Positions 4,145 to 12,956 of a DNA stretch of 41,110 bases are shown piece by piece. Source of the DNA: Ignavibacteriaceae bacterium (GTDB lineage Bacteria > Bacteroidota > Ignavibacteria > Ignavibacteriales > Ignavibacteriaceae). How positions within the stretch are numbered: the first letter of the stretch is position 1; every line of letters begins with the position of its first letter. Below the pieces are notes generated by a model. The model saw nothing but the letters and a program-made list of their open reading frames with translations. It had not been told where the DNA came from and did no database searches. Position numbers and translations under genes: made by a program. Location: the NCBI GenBank assembly GCA_014879635.1, contig JACSRR010000174.1, positions 1 through 41,110 on the forward strand, given 5' to 3'.

Positions 4145-5611
4145 TTGAAACTCAATATATTATTAACAGGTGCCAACGGATATATCGGAAAAAGGATATT
4201 ACCCGTACTTACGGAAGAAGGGCATTCTGTTGTTTGTTGTGTTAGAAACAAAAAGAGACTTCCGGACTCCGGGATATACAAGGATGAGAAGGTTCAGATT
4301 TTTGAAATTGATTTTCTCGATGATTCATTACCTAAAATAGAAAACATTCACGATATTGATGTTGCTTACTATTTCCTTCACTCAATGAGCTCAGAAGATA
4401 AAGAATTTGCTCAATTGGAGGAAAAAACCGCCAAAAACTTCATTAAACTTGCCACCATTTTAAAAGTTAAACAGATTATCTACTTAAGCGGAATTGTGAA
4501 TGAATCCGAACTCTCTTCTCATTTAAAATCTAGGAAAAGAGTAGAAGATGTTCTTAAAAGCGGCGAAATACCTGTTACCGTACTAAGGGCAGGAATAATT
4601 GTGGGTTCCGGTAGTGCCTCTTTTGAAATAATACGGGATTTGGTTGAGAAACTTCCCGTAATGATAACACCAAAGTGGTTAAATACGAGACATCAACCTA
4701 TTGCAATTAGAGATGTGATTAAATTTTTAACAGGTGTAATTCTTAAAACTGAAACATACGGTAAAAGTTATGATATCGGTGGACCGGATATTCTAACCTA
4801 TAAAGAAATGCTTTTAATTTTTTCTAATGTTAGAGGATTAAAAAGATTAATACTTACAGTTCCGGTGATGACACCAAAATTGTCTTCCTATTGGTTATTT
4901 TTTGTAACTTCAACATCCTACAGGTTAGCACAAAATTTGGTTGATAGTATGAAAATACCTGTAATTTGTAGAAATAATGACTTGGGTGAGCTGTTAAAAA
5001 TTGAAACGGTTTCATACAGAAGGGCTGTTGAGTTTGCATTTGAAAAAATTGAACAGAATATGGTAATTTCGAGTTGGAAAGATTCACTTGTTTCAAGCGT
5101 CAAAGACCCGGGGTTGTTAAAACATATAAATGTTCCAAAATTCGGTTGTTTTGTTGACAATAGAAGGGCTGAAATTAGTAGTGAACCGGATCAAGTACTT
5201 GAGAATGTTTGGTCAATTGGCGGGGATAGAGGATGGTATTATGCAAACTTTTTATGGTCAATTAGGGGTATTTTAGATAAAATTGTGGGGGGTGTTGGAT
5301 TAAGGCGAGGTAGAACTCACCCTTCTAAGATTAATGCAGGCGACACACTAGATTTTTGGCGCGTTTTAATATCTGACTTGAGTGAAAAAAGATTATTACT
5401 TTTTGCCGAAATGAAATTACCGGGTGATGCATGGTTAGAGTTTAAAATTGAAGAAAAAGAAGGAAAGATTTATCTAATTCAAACCGCAACCTTCAGACCC
5501 AAAGGAATTAAAGGTCGGTTATATTGGTACTCTGTACTTCCATTTCACCACTTTATTTTTAACGGTATGGTAAGAAATATAATAAACTTCAGACCTGCTA
5601 ATAAAGATTAA
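4145..5611 (+). CDS. YbjT-like NAD(P)-binding SDR-family protein with C-terminal DUF2867
   Basis: The 488-residue protein starts with a Rossmann fold: TGANGYIGKR at residues 8-17 gives the GxxGxxG dinucleotide-binding loop of atypical/extended SDRs. The beta strand YLSGIV and the segment TVLRAGIIVGSGS follow, as in the NAD-dependent epimerase/NmrA-like group. From about residue 335 the sequence matches the layout of DUF2867 (GDRGWYYANFLW, TLDFWRV, LPGDAWLEFKI). The SDR plus DUF2867 architecture and the length match E. coli YbjT (about 476 aa); the substrate is unknown. The start is TTG at 4145. No ATG or GTG lies upstream that would keep the fold intact, and the Rossmann strand begins at residue 3, so this start is credible. 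It lies 53 bases after the kinase and may share its transcript. Confidence 0.85.
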   Translation: MKLNILLTGANGYIGKRILPVLTEEGHSVVCCVRNKKRLPDSGIYKDEKVQIFEIDFLDDSLPKIENIHDIDVAYYFLHSMSSEDKEFAQLEEKTAKNFIKLATILKVKQIIYLSGIVNESELSSHLKSRKRVEDVLKSGEIPVTVLRAGIIVGSGSASFEIIRDLVEKLPVMITPKWLNTRHQPIAIRDVIKFLTGVILKTETYGKSYDIGGPDILTYKEMLLIFSNVRGLKRLILTVPVMTPKLSSYWLFFVTSTSYRLAQNLVDSMKIPVICRNNDLGELLKIETVSYRRAVEFAFEKIEQNMVISSWKDSLVSSVKDPGLLKHINVPKFGCFVDNRRAEISSEPDQVLENVWSIGGDRGWYYANFLWSIRGILDKIVGGVGLRRGRTHPSKINAGDTLDFWRVLISDLSEKRLLLFAEMKLPGDAWLEFKIEEKEGKIYLIQTATFRPKGIKGRLYWYSVLPFHHFIFNGMVRNIINFRPANKD

Positions 5612-5662
5612 TTAATTTGTGTTAAAGTTAATATTTTTGAATTTTTAGGAAATTAGGTGAGT

Positions 5663-5682
5663 GTAAATAGAGCACTATTTAC
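5663..5682. repeat. Perfect 8-bp inverted repeat with 4-nt loop
   Basis: GTAAATAG and CTATTTAC flank an AGCA loop 50 bases after the SDR gene, followed by ACTTTTC. It could be a weak terminator for the upstream gene, but the stem has only two G-C pairs and the T tract is short, so function is uncertain. The rest of the stretch 5612-5783 holds nothing else recognisable. Confidence 0.35.
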
Positions 5683-5783
5683 TTTTCAAAATAGACAGCA
5701 ACAAAATTTGATTCATTACTAATTACCTTCTGAAATATCTAACAACCGTATAAAAGAGAAAAGAGTAAATTAATCAAAGTTGT

Positions 5784-5828: not shown

Positions 5829-5917
5829 GGAAAGGTGCCGGAGTGGTTGAACGGGCTCGCCTGGAAAGCGAGTGTACTGCGAAAGTGGTACCGAGGGTTC
5901 GAATCCCTCCTTTTCCG
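5829..5917 (+). tRNA. tRNA-Ser (anticodon GGA)
   Basis: A full class II cloverleaf can be folded. Acceptor stem: GGAAAGG (5829-5835) with CTTTTCC (5910-5916), one G-U pair, discriminator G at 5917. Anticodon stem: CTCGC (5856-5860) with GCGAG (5868-5872) around loop CTGGAAA, giving anticodon GGA (5863-5865). The long variable arm 5873-5892 is typical of tRNA-Ser. T arm: GAGGG/CCCTC around TTCGAAT. No CCA is encoded (CTT follows). It decodes UCC and UCU. Confidence 0.95.
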
Positions 5918-5969: not shown

Positions 5970-7313
5970 ATGACTTCCAAAAGTTACAAACGCCACGCAA
6001 TTGAAACCCTTCAACTCGCTTACCCGATCATGATTGGTCAGTTCGGTTATACTTTGATGGGCTTAGTTGATAGTATGATGGTCGGTAGGGTCGGTGCCGA
6101 TGAATTAGCAGCTTCATCTGTTGGTCTCAGCGTCTTTTTTATCATACTCGTTTTTGGATTAGGCGTAAGTTTTGCAATCTCTCCTTTAACAGCCATTGCA
6201 GAAGGATCAAATAATAAATCTGAATCATCTTCAATTTTTTCAAACGGACTGTATATAAATGTAGTTGCCGGAATAATTCTTGGTCTATTAACATATTTTG
6301 CAGCAGATGTGATTCGATTTTTAAATCAACCACCAAGAGTTACTGAACTTGCAATTGAATACACCAAAATTCTTGCAATTTCAATTATTCCTATAATGTT
6401 TTTCCAAAGTTATAAACAATTTGTTGACGGGCTTTCTGAAACAAGACCGGCAATGATAGTAGTAATTTTGGCAAATGTTGTTAATATAATAGTTAATTGG
6501 TTTTTGATATTCGGCAACTGGGGTTTTCCGGAGCTCGGTTTGAACGGAGCAGGGTACGCAACATTTTTTTCAAGAATTTTTATGGCATTCGGATTTTATT
6601 TGTTTGTAACAAGAAGCAACAGATTCAAAGATTATACACTTAAAATATTCCCGGTTGTCATTGACAAAATTATTTCAAAAAAAATATTAAAAGTTGGGAT
6701 TCCTGCAGGTTTTCAGCACTTATTTGAAGTCGGAGCATTTTCATTTGCTTCAATTATGGTAGGCTGGTTAGGAACATATCCTTTGGCGGCTCATCATATA
6801 GCATTAAACATTGCAGGTGTTACTTATATGATTGTATGGGGTATTTCGGCATCCGGTTCAATAAGGGTAGGTAACGAGTTGGGTGCAAATAATATACCCG
6901 GTATCAGAAAGGCGGGATTTGTGGCAATTGTGCTCTCATTTCTAATTATGCTTTTATTCGGAATAATAATGATCTTTACCAAAAATATTATACCGTACTT
7001 TTATATAGATGAAATTCATGTGGTTGAAATAGCTTCGGGACTTTTATTGATTGCGGCTTTTTTCCAGATATTTGACGGAACGCAAGCCACCGCTATCGGA
7101 ATATTGCGAGGTTTAACTGATTTGAAAATACCGACTCTCATTACATTTGTGGCATATTGGATAATTGCGCTTCCCGGTGCGTATTTATTAGGGTTCATAT
7201 TTGAATGGGGGGTTGAAGGAGTTTGGATAGCTCTTTTACTAAGTTTGGTCTTTTCTGCAATTGCACTAACATTAAGATTTCAAATTAAGAGTAAAAGACC
7301 TGTAAGTATATAG
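5970..7313 (+). CDS. MATE-family multidrug/Na+ (or H+) antiporter
   Basis: This 447-residue, strongly hydrophobic protein fits the length and 12-helix layout of the MATE family (NorM/DinF/DNA-damage-inducible type). The N-terminal segment LAYPIMIGQFGYTLMGLVD followed by MMVGRVGADELAA is a clear MatE signature, and the same pattern recurs after the middle (VGIPAGFQHLFEVGAFSFAS...), reflecting the two-repeat fold. It sits in the inner membrane and exports cationic compounds using an ion gradient; substrates cannot be told from sequence. The ATG at 5970 begins just before helix 1. It lies 52 bases downstream of the tRNA with no good Shine-Dalgarno, so it may be read from the tRNA promoter or a weak promoter of its own. 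Confidence 0.92.
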   Translation: MTSKSYKRHAIETLQLAYPIMIGQFGYTLMGLVDSMMVGRVGADELAASSVGLSVFFIILVFGLGVSFAISPLTAIAEGSNNKSESSSIFSNGLYINVVAGIILGLLTYFAADVIRFLNQPPRVTELAIEYTKILAISIIPIMFFQSYKQFVDGLSETRPAMIVVILANVVNIIVNWFLIFGNWGFPELGLNGAGYATFFSRIFMAFGFYLFVTRSNRFKDYTLKIFPVVIDKIISKKILKVGIPAGFQHLFEVGAFSFASIMVGWLGTYPLAAHHIALNIAGVTYMIVWGISASGSIRVGNELGANNIPGIRKAGFVAIVLSFLIMLLFGIIMIFTKNIIPYFYIDEIHVVEIASGLLLIAAFFQIFDGTQATAIGILRGLTDLKIPTLITFVAYWIIALPGAYLLGFIFEWGVEGVWIALLLSLVFSAIALTLRFQIKSKRPVSI

Positions 7314-7412: not shown

Positions 7413-7832
7413 ATGAACAAGCGAGTTTACAGGTCAAAAAGTCAAAAAATCATTGCCGGTGTGTGCGGGGGTCTTGCAGAGTATTTTCATACTGACCCTG
7501 TATTTGTAAGGTTGGCAGTAGTACTACTTACATTGATGCACGGAATCGGAATAGTCCTTTATATTGCCGCTATTTTCATTATCCCGGAAGAGCCTTTTAA
7601 TTTTCAGACTCCTCCTACAATTGAAGAGGCAGATGAGATAAAACAAAATAACAAAATAGAAAAAAAGAGAGTATTTGGTATAATATTAGTGCTGATTGGC
7701 GGTTTTTTCTTTTTACAGAATTTTTTCCCCGCATTAGAACTTTCACACATTGTGCCGTTAGCACTTATGTTTGCGGGCGGAATGTTAATCTATTATTCCA
7801 AAAAAACTAAAAGCGTTGAGGAACTACAATGA
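7413..7832 (+). CDS. PspC-domain membrane protein
   Basis: The first 60 residues of this 139-residue protein form a PspC domain: basic start RVYRSKSQKIIAGVCGGLAE, then YFHTDPVFVRLAVVLL and a helix ending IIPEEP. After a charged linker (about 68-85) come two more membrane helices (IILVLIGGFFFLQ and HIVPLALMFAGGMLIYY) that resemble the LiaI/LiaF-like membrane module. PspC-type proteins sense or relay envelope stress. The start is well supported by AAAAGGTG just upstream of the ATG. It overlaps the next gene by four bases (ATGA at 7829-7832), so the two are translationally coupled and probably act together. Confidence 0.88.
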   Translation: MNKRVYRSKSQKIIAGVCGGLAEYFHTDPVFVRLAVVLLTLMHGIGIVLYIAAIFIIPEEPFNFQTPPTIEEADEIKQNNKIEKKRVFGIILVLIGGFFFLQNFFPALELSHIVPLALMFAGGMLIYYSKKTKSVEELQ

Positions 7833-8761
7833 AACAGAGTCAAATTTTCTGGGGTGTTTTGTTTGTATCGTTAGGAATTATGATTTTATTATTCCAGATT
7901 TTCGATTTCAGTTTGCCATTTAGCAATATCATCGGATATTTCTGGCCACTTGCAATAATTCTAATCGGAGCCGGTTTCTTGATTAAGTCAAATTTTGTTA
8001 AACTACTATTTAGTGGTTTTGCGGGTCTTGGCATCGGTATTGTACTGTTTGGGATTTTTTCAGGAATTATGAATTTTGATTTCCGTTTTTTGAAATACAA
8101 AAACACAAAATCATCAAGTGGTACACTAAATAGTTCTTTTCACAGTTCGCCGGTTGATTCATCTGTAAAATCGGTTAAGTTGCACTTTAGCGGAGGAGCC
8201 GGTTCATATAGAGTATATGGTATAACTGACAATCTATATCTCTTAAAATCTGACGGTTCTTCAAGAACTTTTGAGGTTGAATCAAAAAATATAGACGGTA
8301 CTGTTAATCTTGACATTTCTATGCAAGAATTTAATTTTGATTCAGGAGAAGGGGAATTATCAGGCGCTGTTTCTTTAGGACTTCAACAAAACATTCCTTT
8401 CGATCTAAATTTTGAATTAGGGGCGTCAAAAGGCGAGATTGACTTAAAAGGATTCCTGATTTCTAAACTCAATTTAGAAGCGGGAGCAAGTTCTATTAAA
8501 ATATTTCTGCCTAATCCTTCTGAAAAAGATGTTCCGGTTTCAATTACATCGGGTGCAGGAAAAATTACGGTTTATATTCCCGAGAACAGTGGAGCTAAAA
8601 TAGAAACCGATGTTAATTTGAGCAGTACAAATTTTGATGACTTCACTTCCGCTAACGGAATATTGGCTAACAAAGGATACATTAACAGTCAAGAATCTTA
8701 CAAAATCATGTTTGAAGGCGGAGTATCTAATTTTACTGTTAAGACTTATAAGCCTGAATAA
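7829..8761 (+). CDS. LiaF-like membrane protein with C-terminal beta-helix-like domain
   Basis: In this 310-residue protein, residues 1-95 hold three to four hydrophobic segments with the paired pattern ILLFQIF...FWPLAIILIGAGFLI typical of the LiaI-LiaF-like transmembrane region. From about residue 115 a soluble beta-rich domain follows with short repeating motifs (FSGGAGSYRV, LELGASKGEID, LEAGASSIKIFLP, TSGAGKITVYIP, FEGGVSNFTV). These are the stacked 'G-A-G/S-x-I/V' turns of LiaF/DUF2154-like and related toast-rack or single-stranded beta-helix domains. It is coupled by ATGA overlap to the PspC-domain gene, which supports a shared role in envelope-stress sensing. The exact role in this lineage is inferred. 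Confidence 0.8.
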   Translation: MKQSQIFWGVLFVSLGIMILLFQIFDFSLPFSNIIGYFWPLAIILIGAGFLIKSNFVKLLFSGFAGLGIGIVLFGIFSGIMNFDFRFLKYKNTKSSSGTLNSSFHSSPVDSSVKSVKLHFSGGAGSYRVYGITDNLYLLKSDGSSRTFEVESKNIDGTVNLDISMQEFNFDSGEGELSGAVSLGLQQNIPFDLNFELGASKGEIDLKGFLISKLNLEAGASSIKIFLPNPSEKDVPVSITSGAGKITVYIPENSGAKIETDVNLSSTNFDDFTSANGILANKGYINSQESYKIMFEGGVSNFTVKTYKPE

Positions 8762-8833: not shown

Positions 8834-8841
8834 TATCTTTG
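8834..8841 (+). promoter_or_regulatory. Candidate -7 box TATCTTTG upstream of the cysteine-motif gene
   Basis: TATCTTTG matches TAnnTTTG exactly and ends 27 bases before the ATG at 8869, a suitable distance. No TTTG is seen 19 bases upstream, so only half of the Bacteroidetes-type promoter is recognisable. Confidence 0.35.
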
Positions 8842-8868: not shown

Positions 8869-9582
8869 ATGGAAAACTTAGATAAACTAAATTTCATTTA
8901 CGAGTTTAAATTTAGTAACGGAGAGAAAAAAACTATCACCGTTGCTTTAGATAGAGCCACTCTTAATGTAATAAGAGACGAAGCCCATAAACCAAATGAT
9001 TGGGCTTTATTAGAGAATTTCAAATGTCCGCACTGCCCTTTAAATCCCGAAGAAAATAAATATTGCCCCGTTGCTCTGAATTTAAGCGAAGTTATCTATA
9101 ATTTTCAAGATGAAGTTTCATTCGAAGAAATTGAAGTTTACGCTACCACACCACAAAGACAAGTTGTTAAAAAAACATCGCTTCAAGCCGGCGTGAGCAG
9201 CCTTTTGGGTATTTTAATGGTATCTTCAGGTTGCCCTATAATGGCAAAACTTAAGCCAATGTTATATTTTCACCTCCCGTTTTCTAATCTTGAAGAAACA
9301 CAGATAAGAGCCCTCTCAATGTACTTGTTAAGTCAATATGTAAAATACAAGAAAGGTGGGGAACCTGATTGGGAAATGACTGGTTTGATTAAAATATATG
9401 AAGAGATTCAAATATTAAATAAAAATGTATCAAAAAAAATAGTTGATCTTGAGCATAAAGATGCAAGTATCAACTCTCTGATTATTCTTAATAATTTTGC
9501 AGATTATGTTACATTTACATTGGATGAAAAAATGTTAGACGAAATCGATTTTTTTGTTAAATATTTCGGTAAAATTGATTGA
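8869..9582 (+). CDS. Conserved protein of unknown function with CPxCP...CP cysteine cluster (DUF6901-like)
   Basis: I cannot assign a function. The 237-residue protein has a beta-rich N-terminus (NFIYEFKFSNGEKKTITV) typed like a small ligand or sensor fold. A cysteine/proline cluster follows, CPHCPLNPEENKYCPVALNL (about residues 54-73). A second motif, VSSGCPIMAKLKPM (about 118-131), comes next, then a helical region with HLPFSNLEETQIRALSMYLL. The four cysteines, each followed by or near Pro, suggest metal or cluster binding, which is inference. From memory this resembles the uncharacterised family DUF6901; a profile search would settle that. Its TGA overlaps the TTG start of the next gene (TTGA at 9579-9582), so it is coupled to a queuosine-precursor transporter. 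Confidence 0.75.
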   Translation: MENLDKLNFIYEFKFSNGEKKTITVALDRATLNVIRDEAHKPNDWALLENFKCPHCPLNPEENKYCPVALNLSEVIYNFQDEVSFEEIEVYATTPQRQVVKKTSLQAGVSSLLGILMVSSGCPIMAKLKPMLYFHLPFSNLEETQIRALSMYLLSQYVKYKKGGEPDWEMTGLIKIYEEIQILNKNVSKKIVDLEHKDASINSLIILNNFADYVTFTLDEKMLDEIDFFVKYFGKID

Positions 9583-10343
9583 TTTTCGATAAAAAAAGAA
9601 CTTTATTCCTCGTTTTAGCTTCGTTTTTTGTAGCAAACGCAATTTTAGCTGAGTTTATCGGCGTAAAAATATTTTCTCTCGAATCAACTTTGGGGCTACC
9701 CGATGCAAATATCTCACTACTGGGGATTGAAAACCTATCATTTAACCTTACAGCAGGCGTGTTATTATGGCCAATAGTTTTTATATTTACTGATATCATC
9801 AATGAATATTACGGAAGAAAAGGTGTAAAATTCCTCTCTTTCTTAACAGCCGGCTTAATTGCTTATGCTTTTATAATGGTGTTCATTTCTATAGAATTAT
9901 CTCCTTCAAGCTTTTGGGTTGAAAGGGAAACCTCCGGTGGTGTAATTAACATGGATTTAGCGTTCAACAGTATTTTTGGACAAGGTCTGTGGATAATAAT
10001 TGGTTCGTTAGTGGCATTTTTGATAGGCCAGTTGGTGGATGTAACAGTTTTTCATTTTCTTAGAAAGAAGACAGGAAGTTCTAAGATATGGTTAAGAGCA
10101 ACCGGTTCAACATTAGTTTCTCAGTTAATTGACAGCTTTGTGGTGCTGTTTATAGCATTTTATATAGGTGCTGGTTGGGAATTCAGTTTAGTTATTGCAA
10201 TTGGAATAGTCAATTACATTTATAAATTCTCAATTGCCATATTTCTCACCCCAATATTATATGCCATTCATTTTATTATCGACAAATTTCTTGGTGAAGA
10301 TCTTGCCAAATCAATGACTGACGAAGCAGCCAAGAATAGTTAA
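9579..10343 (+). CDS. Queuosine precursor transporter (YhhQ/DUF165 family)
   Basis: This 254-residue membrane protein has about six helices. The family features are the N-terminal helix with ANAILAEFIGVKIF, the loop FTDIINEYYGRKGVKF after helix 2, and the later helix with GQLVDVTVFHFLRKKTG and TLVSQLIDSFVV. The DUF165/QPTR family imports queuosine precursors such as preQ0/preQ1 across the inner membrane for tRNA modification. The start is TTG at 9579, inside the stop region of the previous gene. There is no ATG or GTG until well into helix 3, so reinitiation through the 4-base TTGA overlap is the best explanation. No other queuosine gene is in the window. Confidence 0.87.
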   Translation: MIFDKKRTLFLVLASFFVANAILAEFIGVKIFSLESTLGLPDANISLLGIENLSFNLTAGVLLWPIVFIFTDIINEYYGRKGVKFLSFLTAGLIAYAFIMVFISIELSPSSFWVERETSGGVINMDLAFNSIFGQGLWIIIGSLVAFLIGQLVDVTVFHFLRKKTGSSKIWLRATGSTLVSQLIDSFVVLFIAFYIGAGWEFSLVIAIGIVNYIYKFSIAIFLTPILYAIHFIIDKFLGEDLAKSMTDEAAKNS

Positions 10344-10817: not shown

Positions 10818-12956
10818 ATGAAACTCAGGTTTCTTATTTTATTTTTATTAACTTTTGTTATTTTTGTTGAAGCACAGGAAAAAATGAATATTCATATTAA
10901 AACAGAAAGGGATTTTGTAAATGCCCCTTCTGTTAAAAAAATACCGTCCGAATTTGTTGAATACCGCAATAAACGAGTAGATAACTATTTTTGGTTGAAA
11001 GAAAAAAACAATCCTGAAGTAATTGCTTATTTGGAAGCTGAAAATCAATATACAGAAACTGTTCTATCCCACACCGCCGAACTCCAAGCTAAAATATTTG
11101 ATGAATTAAAATCAAGAATTAAAGAAGACGATATTTCTGTTCCATACTTTGATAACGGGTATTTTTATCAAACAAAAAATGAGAAAGGAAAAGATTACCC
11201 TATATTCGTTAGAAAAAAGGGGAGCCTGAATGCAGAGGAAGAAGTTGTATTTGATGTAAATAAATTGGCTGAAAACCAACCTGCTTTTTTGTTTAGAAAT
11301 TTTAGTTTTAGTAAAAATAATAAATTAGTTGCTTACGCATTTAATACAAATGGTTCATACGCCGAATTCACTCTTAAAGTAAAAGATATTGAATCGGGAA
11401 ATAACTTGGATGTGAATATTGAAAAAATAAGCTCTTTTGTGTGGTCAAATGACGACAAGACAATTTATTATACTACAAGCAACGAGGCTTTAAGACCATT
11501 TAGAGTTTATAAATATGAAATTGGGTCGCAAAAACCTGCTGAATTATTGTTTGAAGAGAAAGACGAACTTTTTAATTTAAGACTGAGTAAAGATAAAAGT
11601 AATCAGTATATTTTTATGATCTCTTCCAGTTTTACGAGTTCTGAATACAGATTAATAGATGCTAACCAACCGGCTAAAGAAGCTACAGTTTTTTTAGAGA
11701 GACAGCCGGGTTTTGAATACTACCTTTACCCATACCAAAACGACTTTTACATATTAGTTAAGAATGATGACTATTTTAACTATAAGGTTTATAAAACAAG
11801 TAAAGATAATACTGACAAAAAAAACTGGACTACTTTTATTGAGCATGATGAAAATGTTAAAATTGAATCAATAGAGTTATTTAAAGACAAATTTGTCTAT
11901 ATGATTAGAAAAAATGGCTTAAGAGAAATTAAGATATTTGATTTTAATTCAGGTGAAACAAGTGAAGTATTATTTCCGGAGCCTGTGTACGCCGTATCAA
12001 TGGGTTACACGCCGGAATTTAATTCAGAATCTCTAAGGTACATTTATAGATCGTTGAATAGACCCGCAACAACATTTGAATATAATATGAATACGGGTAA
12101 ATCAGAAATTCTTAAGGTTCAAGAAATACCGGGCGGATTTAATCCCGATGATTATTGTGTTGAAAGATTATGGGCACCGGCTAAAGATGGTAAAAAAGTA
12201 CCTATGGCTGTGATTTATAAAAAAGGGTTAAAGAAAGATGGCTCAAACCCTGCTTTACTTTATGCTTACGGTTCTTACGGTGCTACTACCGAAGCCAATT
12301 TTAATTCTAATGTATTTAGTTTAATTGATAGGGGATTTGTTTACGGAATTGCCCAAATTAGAGGCGGAAGCGAACTTGGTGAAAAATGGTATGACGACGG
12401 AAAATTAAAAAATAAGATGAATACTTTTACCGATTTTATTTCTTGCTCAGAATATTTAATTGAACAAGGTTTTACCAAACCTGAAAAATTATCAATTATG
12501 GGTGGCAGTGCCGGTGGTTTACTTATGGGAGTTGTTGTAAACTTAAGACCTGATCTATTTGGTGCTGTAATTGCAGCGGTGCCATTTGTTGATGTTATCA
12601 ACACAATGCTGGATGCTTCTTTACCCCTAACAACTCAAGAATACGAACAGTGGGGTAATCCAAATATCGAAGAAGATTATAAATATATTTTAAGCTATTC
12701 CCCTTATGATAATATTACCGAACAAATTTATCCGAATATTCTTGCTACCGGTGGATTACACGATTCGCAGGTTCTCTATCATGAGCCGGCAAAATGGGTT
12801 GCAAAATTAAGAGACTTTAAATTGGGTGACAATCTTATTTTGCTCAAAACAAATATGGAGTCAGGTCACGGGGGTGCAACAGGAAGATTTACAAGATTAA
12901 AAGAAGTTGCCTTTGAGTATGCATTTATTCTTGACAGGTTCGGAATTCTTAAATAA
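10818..12956 (+). CDS. Exported prolyl-oligopeptidase family (S9A) peptidase, oligopeptidase B-like
   Basis: This 712-residue protein begins with a signal peptide (MKLRFLILFLLTFVIFVEAQ, likely cut after VEA). The mature part starts with the S9A signature (FVEYRNKRVDNYFWL...NPEVIAYLEAEN), followed by a beta-propeller (about 110-440) and an alpha/beta-hydrolase domain. The catalytic triad is visible: Ser564 in GGSAGG, Asp649 in GGLHDSQV, His684 in ESGHGG. The segment LTTQEYEQWGNP (Glu608, Glu610) is the oligopeptidase B signature that binds Arg/Lys at P1, so cleavage after basic residues of short peptides is likely. Family members in E. coli are cytosolic and lack a signal peptide, so the export signal is notable. 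AAAGGA precedes the ATG by a normal distance. Confidence 0.9.
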   Translation: MKLRFLILFLLTFVIFVEAQEKMNIHIKTERDFVNAPSVKKIPSEFVEYRNKRVDNYFWLKEKNNPEVIAYLEAENQYTETVLSHTAELQAKIFDELKSRIKEDDISVPYFDNGYFYQTKNEKGKDYPIFVRKKGSLNAEEEVVFDVNKLAENQPAFLFRNFSFSKNNKLVAYAFNTNGSYAEFTLKVKDIESGNNLDVNIEKISSFVWSNDDKTIYYTTSNEALRPFRVYKYEIGSQKPAELLFEEKDELFNLRLSKDKSNQYIFMISSSFTSSEYRLIDANQPAKEATVFLERQPGFEYYLYPYQNDFYILVKNDDYFNYKVYKTSKDNTDKKNWTTFIEHDENVKIESIELFKDKFVYMIRKNGLREIKIFDFNSGETSEVLFPEPVYAVSMGYTPEFNSESLRYIYRSLNRPATTFEYNMNTGKSEILKVQEIPGGFNPDDYCVERLWAPAKDGKKVPMAVIYKKGLKKDGSNPALLYAYGSYGATTEANFNSNVFSLIDRGFVYGIAQIRGGSELGEKWYDDGKLKNKMNTFTDFISCSEYLIEQGFTKPEKLSIMGGSAGGLLMGVVVNLRPDLFGAVIAAVPFVDVINTMLDASLPLTTQEYEQWGNPNIEEDYKYILSYSPYDNITEQIYPNILATGGLHDSQVLYHEPAKWVAKLRDFKLGDNLILLKTNMESGHGGATGRFTRLKEVAFEYAFILDRFGILK

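Follow-up and report, generated by a model that had tools for sequence, protein, structure and literature searches.

A DUF6901 protein with a conserved four-cysteine signature is encoded directly upstream of a predicted queuosine-precursor transporter in Ignavibacteriaceae

The window, meaning the whole 41,110-nucleotide stretch of Ignavibacteriaceae DNA that was analysed, carries two overlapping genes on the forward strand. The first (positions 8869–9582) starts with ATG, ends with a TGA stop at 9580–9582 and encodes a 237-residue protein of the DUF6901 family (PF21842); the second (9579–10343) starts with TTG at 9579 and encodes a 254-residue queuosine-precursor transporter (QPT; TIGR00697, Vut_1 PF02592). 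Stop and start share the four forward-strand nucleotides TTGA (9579–9582), and the TTG start is backed by homologues, which have their N-termini at nearly the same position, shortly before the first hydrophobic segment. The DUF6901 protein matched PF21842 with 262 bits (E = 4.7e-78; residues 9–226 aligned to positions 1–217 of 222) against a gathering cut-off of 27 bits, and its gene is present in a single copy in the window's genome. The transporter scored 128.2 bits against TIGR00697, for which the equivalog cut-off is 50.95, and 157 bits against PF02592. Its score against PRK11212, the equivalog model of the E. coli-type preQ0/preQ1 transporter, was 51.1 bits, under the cut-off of 252 bits. 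A preliminary description of this DNA had named a TTGA overlap, a DUF6901-like first gene and a queuosine-precursor transporter as the second gene, and all three readings were borne out by these coordinates and scores.

Upstream, on the same strand, lie a gene which we take to encode a MATE-type transporter (5970–7313), a gene for a PspC-domain protein (7413–7832) and a gene for a LiaF-like protein (7829–8761), the last being a weak match under curated cut-offs. A homologue of the MATE-type gene recurs upstream in a conserved block, of which the PspC gene forms an upstream part, and the LiaF-like gene adjoins the 5′ side of DUF6901 in 14 family genomes. The PspC-domain and LiaF-like genes also share a 4-nt overlap (7829–7832). 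A tRNA gene (5829–5917) lies just upstream of the MATE-type gene, and in several relatives tRNA genes likewise lie a few kb or less from this block. Downstream of QPT, again on the forward strand, are a small CcmE-like gene (weak match, under the cut-off) and, beyond it, a large ORF (10818–12956). A TAnnTTTG-type −7-like element, TATCTTTG (8834–8841, forward strand), is located 35 nt upstream of DUF6901; it is a suggestive pattern match only, and because such a match was present in only 7 of the 22 relatives inspected, it was not counted as evidence.

The cysteines of the DUF6901 protein fall into two stretches. The codons from C53-P-H-C56-P to Y-C66-P (9025–9069, forward strand) hold the first three cysteines of a presumed metal or cluster site, and those from S-S-G-C122-P through H135-L-P-F (9226–9282, forward strand) hold the fourth together with an invariant histidine. 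In an alignment of 52 non-identical relatives (51 full-length and one shortened by a contig end), C53, C56, C66 and C122 were kept in all 51 full-length sequences, in a few of which the second cysteine had moved by two residues (CX4C). The step from the third to the fourth cysteine was a constant 56 positions, with 55 residues between them (51/51 full-length), and the site pattern is CX2-4C-X(5-9)-C-X55-C with a nearby invariant histidine. H135, P137, F138, N184 and D198 were invariant in the alignment, as were W45, R97 and G114 among the full-length relatives, and in many members these four are the only cysteines. Such conservation of the motifs lies well outside what chance would give. The invariant ligand set expected of a metal- or Fe-S-binding protein is present (four cysteines and a histidine, 51/51); the four-cysteine pattern would suit a single metal or Fe-S site, and from the sequences we infer that DUF6901 binds a metal or a cluster. 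The conserved Cys/His/Asn/Asp set could, judging from the alignment, also be a catalytic site. The preliminary description had picked out the CPHCP...YCP and SSGCP motifs as resembling a metal or cluster site, a likeness that the conservation of all four cysteines supports well.

An AlphaFold2 model built from ten sequences (mean pLDDT 78.9, pTM 0.74) has an N-terminal half with strands and a helical C-terminal half. Foldseek searches with this model against the PDB and a viral structure library gave no match at E ≤ 0.001, and no PDB sequence was retrieved by a profile search. The model resembles no solved fold in these searches, in agreement with the earlier remark that the protein has no known enzyme fold. 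Weak matches to CcmH and CorA were taken as noise.

DUF6901 was found above the cut-off in 29 of 396 genomes of the phylum, and relatives were also present in records titled Calditrichota, Hahellaceae and Verrucomicrobiales. At the sensitivity used, none was detected in phage, plasmid or viral contigs, and no PADLOC anti-phage defence model matched DUF6901; on these two grounds a role in anti-phage defence was rejected. None of the papers searched names DUF6901 or PF21842.

Among 80 genomes of the window's family, read as Ignavibacteriaceae from contigs of this family seen again with NCBI titles, DUF6901 was present in 24, QPT in 47 and both in 20. In 14 of the 24 DUF6901 genomes, drawn from nine genera, QPT is the next gene after DUF6901 on the same strand; the intergenic distance is −4 to 43 nt in 13 of these pairs and 278 nt in one. 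A fifteenth case, G460, has one opposite-strand ORF between the two genes; this genome also carries two tandem DUF6901 copies (L135, region 4661–5722) and is the sole QueH carrier among the 80, with QueG not matched. Both genes are present but apart in five family genomes, three of which have a different QPT subfamily, and four family genomes have DUF6901 without any QPT found. At the genome level, DUF6901 occurs in 20 of the 47 genomes with QPT versus 4 of the 33 without it (Fisher p = 0.006, ignoring relatedness), a modest co-occurrence. A second, distant QPT type (27–31% identical) was seen in G152, G401, G455 and G156, in none of which does it adjoin DUF6901.

The pair was found in two gene orders, PspC-LiaF-DUF6901-QPT in 11 of the 14 paired genomes and DUF6600-DUF6901-QPT in three (G403, G436 and G452). 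Most of the inspected QPT genes that lack DUF6901 stand between DUF6600 and malic enzyme (DUF6600-QPT-malic enzyme). Where a DUF6600 gene was found in the PspC-LiaF genomes searched, no QPT adjoined it, so the pair takes up only one of the two places. Since 77 of 80 family genomes carry the LiaF-like gene, the pair has entered, or departed from, a pre-existing locus. Genes 3′ of QPT vary from genus to genus; synteny thus decays while the pair stays. For the DUF6901 tree, the three DUF6600-context copies as one lineage gave an AU p of 0.08, and G436 fell with the other members of its genus at low support (29/24). The history may be one ancestral pair with losses or more than one joining, and the trees of both proteins fit either. 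The location after PspC-LiaF, seen for DUF6901 in 14 genomes, three of them without QPT seen afterwards (G455, G458 and G440, the contig of G440 ending there), would also suit an envelope-stress module in which DUF6901 partners the PspC/LiaF-like proteins and QPT is a passenger. The near-universal LiaF-like gene, however, far outnumbers DUF6901 with its 24 genomes, and outside the family DUF6901 does not adjoin PspC or LiaF, and we regard such a module as very improbable.

Outside the family, the pair was present in none of the 22 genomes with DUF6901. All 14 DUF6901 genomes of the sister family, which is probably Melioribacteraceae, are without a QPT above the cut-off (there were two sub-threshold matches), and the neighbours of DUF6901 there encode a nitronate monooxygenase, DXR and an RseP-type peptidase. 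Six of the other eight genomes have QPT, in five of them on another contig; in G291, QPT lies about 4.4 kb from DUF6901 on the other strand. In the remaining families, the neighbours are response-regulator/kinase genes, HerA, a sigma-54 activator or an amino-acid permease, and no partner gene common to several families was seen among the neighbourhoods compared. Because the pair is absent from these 22 genomes outside the window's family, a role specific to queuosine precursors is not the core function of the DUF6901 family. The preliminary description had left the choice between coupling and chance adjacency to a neighbourhood survey, with rarity next to queuosine genes as the point against coupling. 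Inside the family the adjacency recurs and is not chance-like (14 of 24 genomes, nine genera, two contexts), so that part stood; outside it, rarity is what we found (0 of 22).

These counts bear on the account that the pair is an old gene-order accident of one family, preserved because operons are economical, with DUF6901 unrelated to queuosine precursors. The same gene order within one family can come from shared descent alone, and the account is favoured by the absence of the pair from the 22 genomes of other families and of QPT above the cut-off from the sister-family genomes, by G437 and G439, which carry both genes without adjacency, and by the frequency of QPT without DUF6901 (27 of 47 QPT-bearing family genomes). 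It fits less well with the pair standing in two distinct neighbourhoods in the same order and with tight spacing, for which joint relocation or repeated joining would be needed. We rate such an accident as a serious possibility that falls short of probable.

A more specific proposal is that DUF6901 binds, converts or senses the preQ0, preQ1 or queuine brought by QPT. The tight linkage in 14 genomes and the modest co-occurrence fit this proposal, as would a catalytic Cys/His/Asn/Asp set. Against it, DUF6901 is widespread without QPT, no Rfam element, including the preQ1 riboswitch, was found near the pair, and steps of the pathway are already filled in nearly all family genomes: QueC was matched in 77 of 80 (70 above the cut-off), TGT in 74 and QueG in 75, including 22 of the 24 with DUF6901, and QueH in one. 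As QueC, TGT and QueG are near-universal with or without DUF6901, it fills no gap at these steps, and the organisms served by QPT have genes for precursor synthesis as well. DUF6901 as a substitute for QueG or QueH, or in place of QueC or TGT, was rejected, those enzymes being present anyway. A protein dedicated to queuosine precursors seems quite unlikely to us.

The window's genome also holds a divergent second TGT on contig C94 (L153, 3–2622; about 310 bits versus about 513 for the canonical one), in an operon-like row with tetrapyrrole-methylase/RsmI-like and FmrO-type 16S rRNA methyltransferase genes. Comparable divergent-TGT rows were seen at L156 (5369–8882) and L157 (5353–8885), and of 198 genomes of the phylum just two, the window's genome and G184, have FmrO above the cut-off. 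The divergent TGT beside FmrO may be a TGT-like enzyme whose target is rRNA close to the decoding site; none of the papers searched mentions FmrO together with 'tRNA-guanine transglycosylase'. A third TGT-like gene is present on contig C230 (L152, 5638–6747), whose gene content looks foreign, an impression from the protein sequences, and which is possibly a contaminant from another phylum.

We favour the reading in which DUF6901 is a general metal or cluster protein that was recruited next to QPT in Ignavibacteriaceae, and give it an even chance; it ranks ahead of the gene-order accident, which ranks ahead of the dedicated queuosine-precursor protein, with the envelope-stress partner last. DUF6901 would be a small soluble protein with a single metal- or Fe-S-binding site and a general core role untied to queuosine. 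The most likely kind of role would be that of a sensor or regulatory partner, which is proposed from the variety of its neighbours. In Ignavibacteriaceae, DUF6901 would have come to stand immediately upstream of a standard QPT, the two forming a co-expressed unit, so that QPT supply would track the signal, or the expression level, of the cysteine protein. The two genes are presumably co-transcribed, and the sensing or regulatory role, with any effect on transport, is putative. A lineage-specific functional link between DUF6901 and QPT in Ignavibacteriaceae is possible. A bolder version, which we consider unlikely, makes DUF6901, with a fold unseen in solved structures, a cytoplasmic partner, responsive to redox state or metal, that would gate or tune queuosine-precursor uptake in this family through the adjacent QPT and so link metal or redox state to tRNA queuosine; if true, a link to transport would tie that state to the supply of a tRNA modification.

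The DUF6901-QPT pairing recurs in one bacterial family and does not characterise the DUF6901 protein family; the QPT neighbourhood alone gives no ground for annotating that protein family as queuosine-related. The window's protein adds a new member to this uncharacterised family and bears its strong cysteine signature. The DUF6901 family gains a firm four-cysteine signature, and Ignavibacteriaceae are a lineage that offers a concrete, testable partner gene.

Among known systems, YhhQ of the queuosine-precursor transporter family COG1738 is described in PMC5372724 as transporting preQ0 in E. coli. The window's QPT is like YhhQ/TIGR00697 in scoring 128 bits over a 51-bit cut-off, and differs from YhhQ in reaching just 51 bits against PRK11212 (cut-off 252), its substrate being predicted. 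The DUF6901 protein is a full member of PF21842, a family without an assigned function. QueG and QueH, the epoxyqueuosine reductases of queuosine synthesis, carry conserved cysteines or clusters; DUF6901, with no sequence match to either, likewise carries conserved cysteines.
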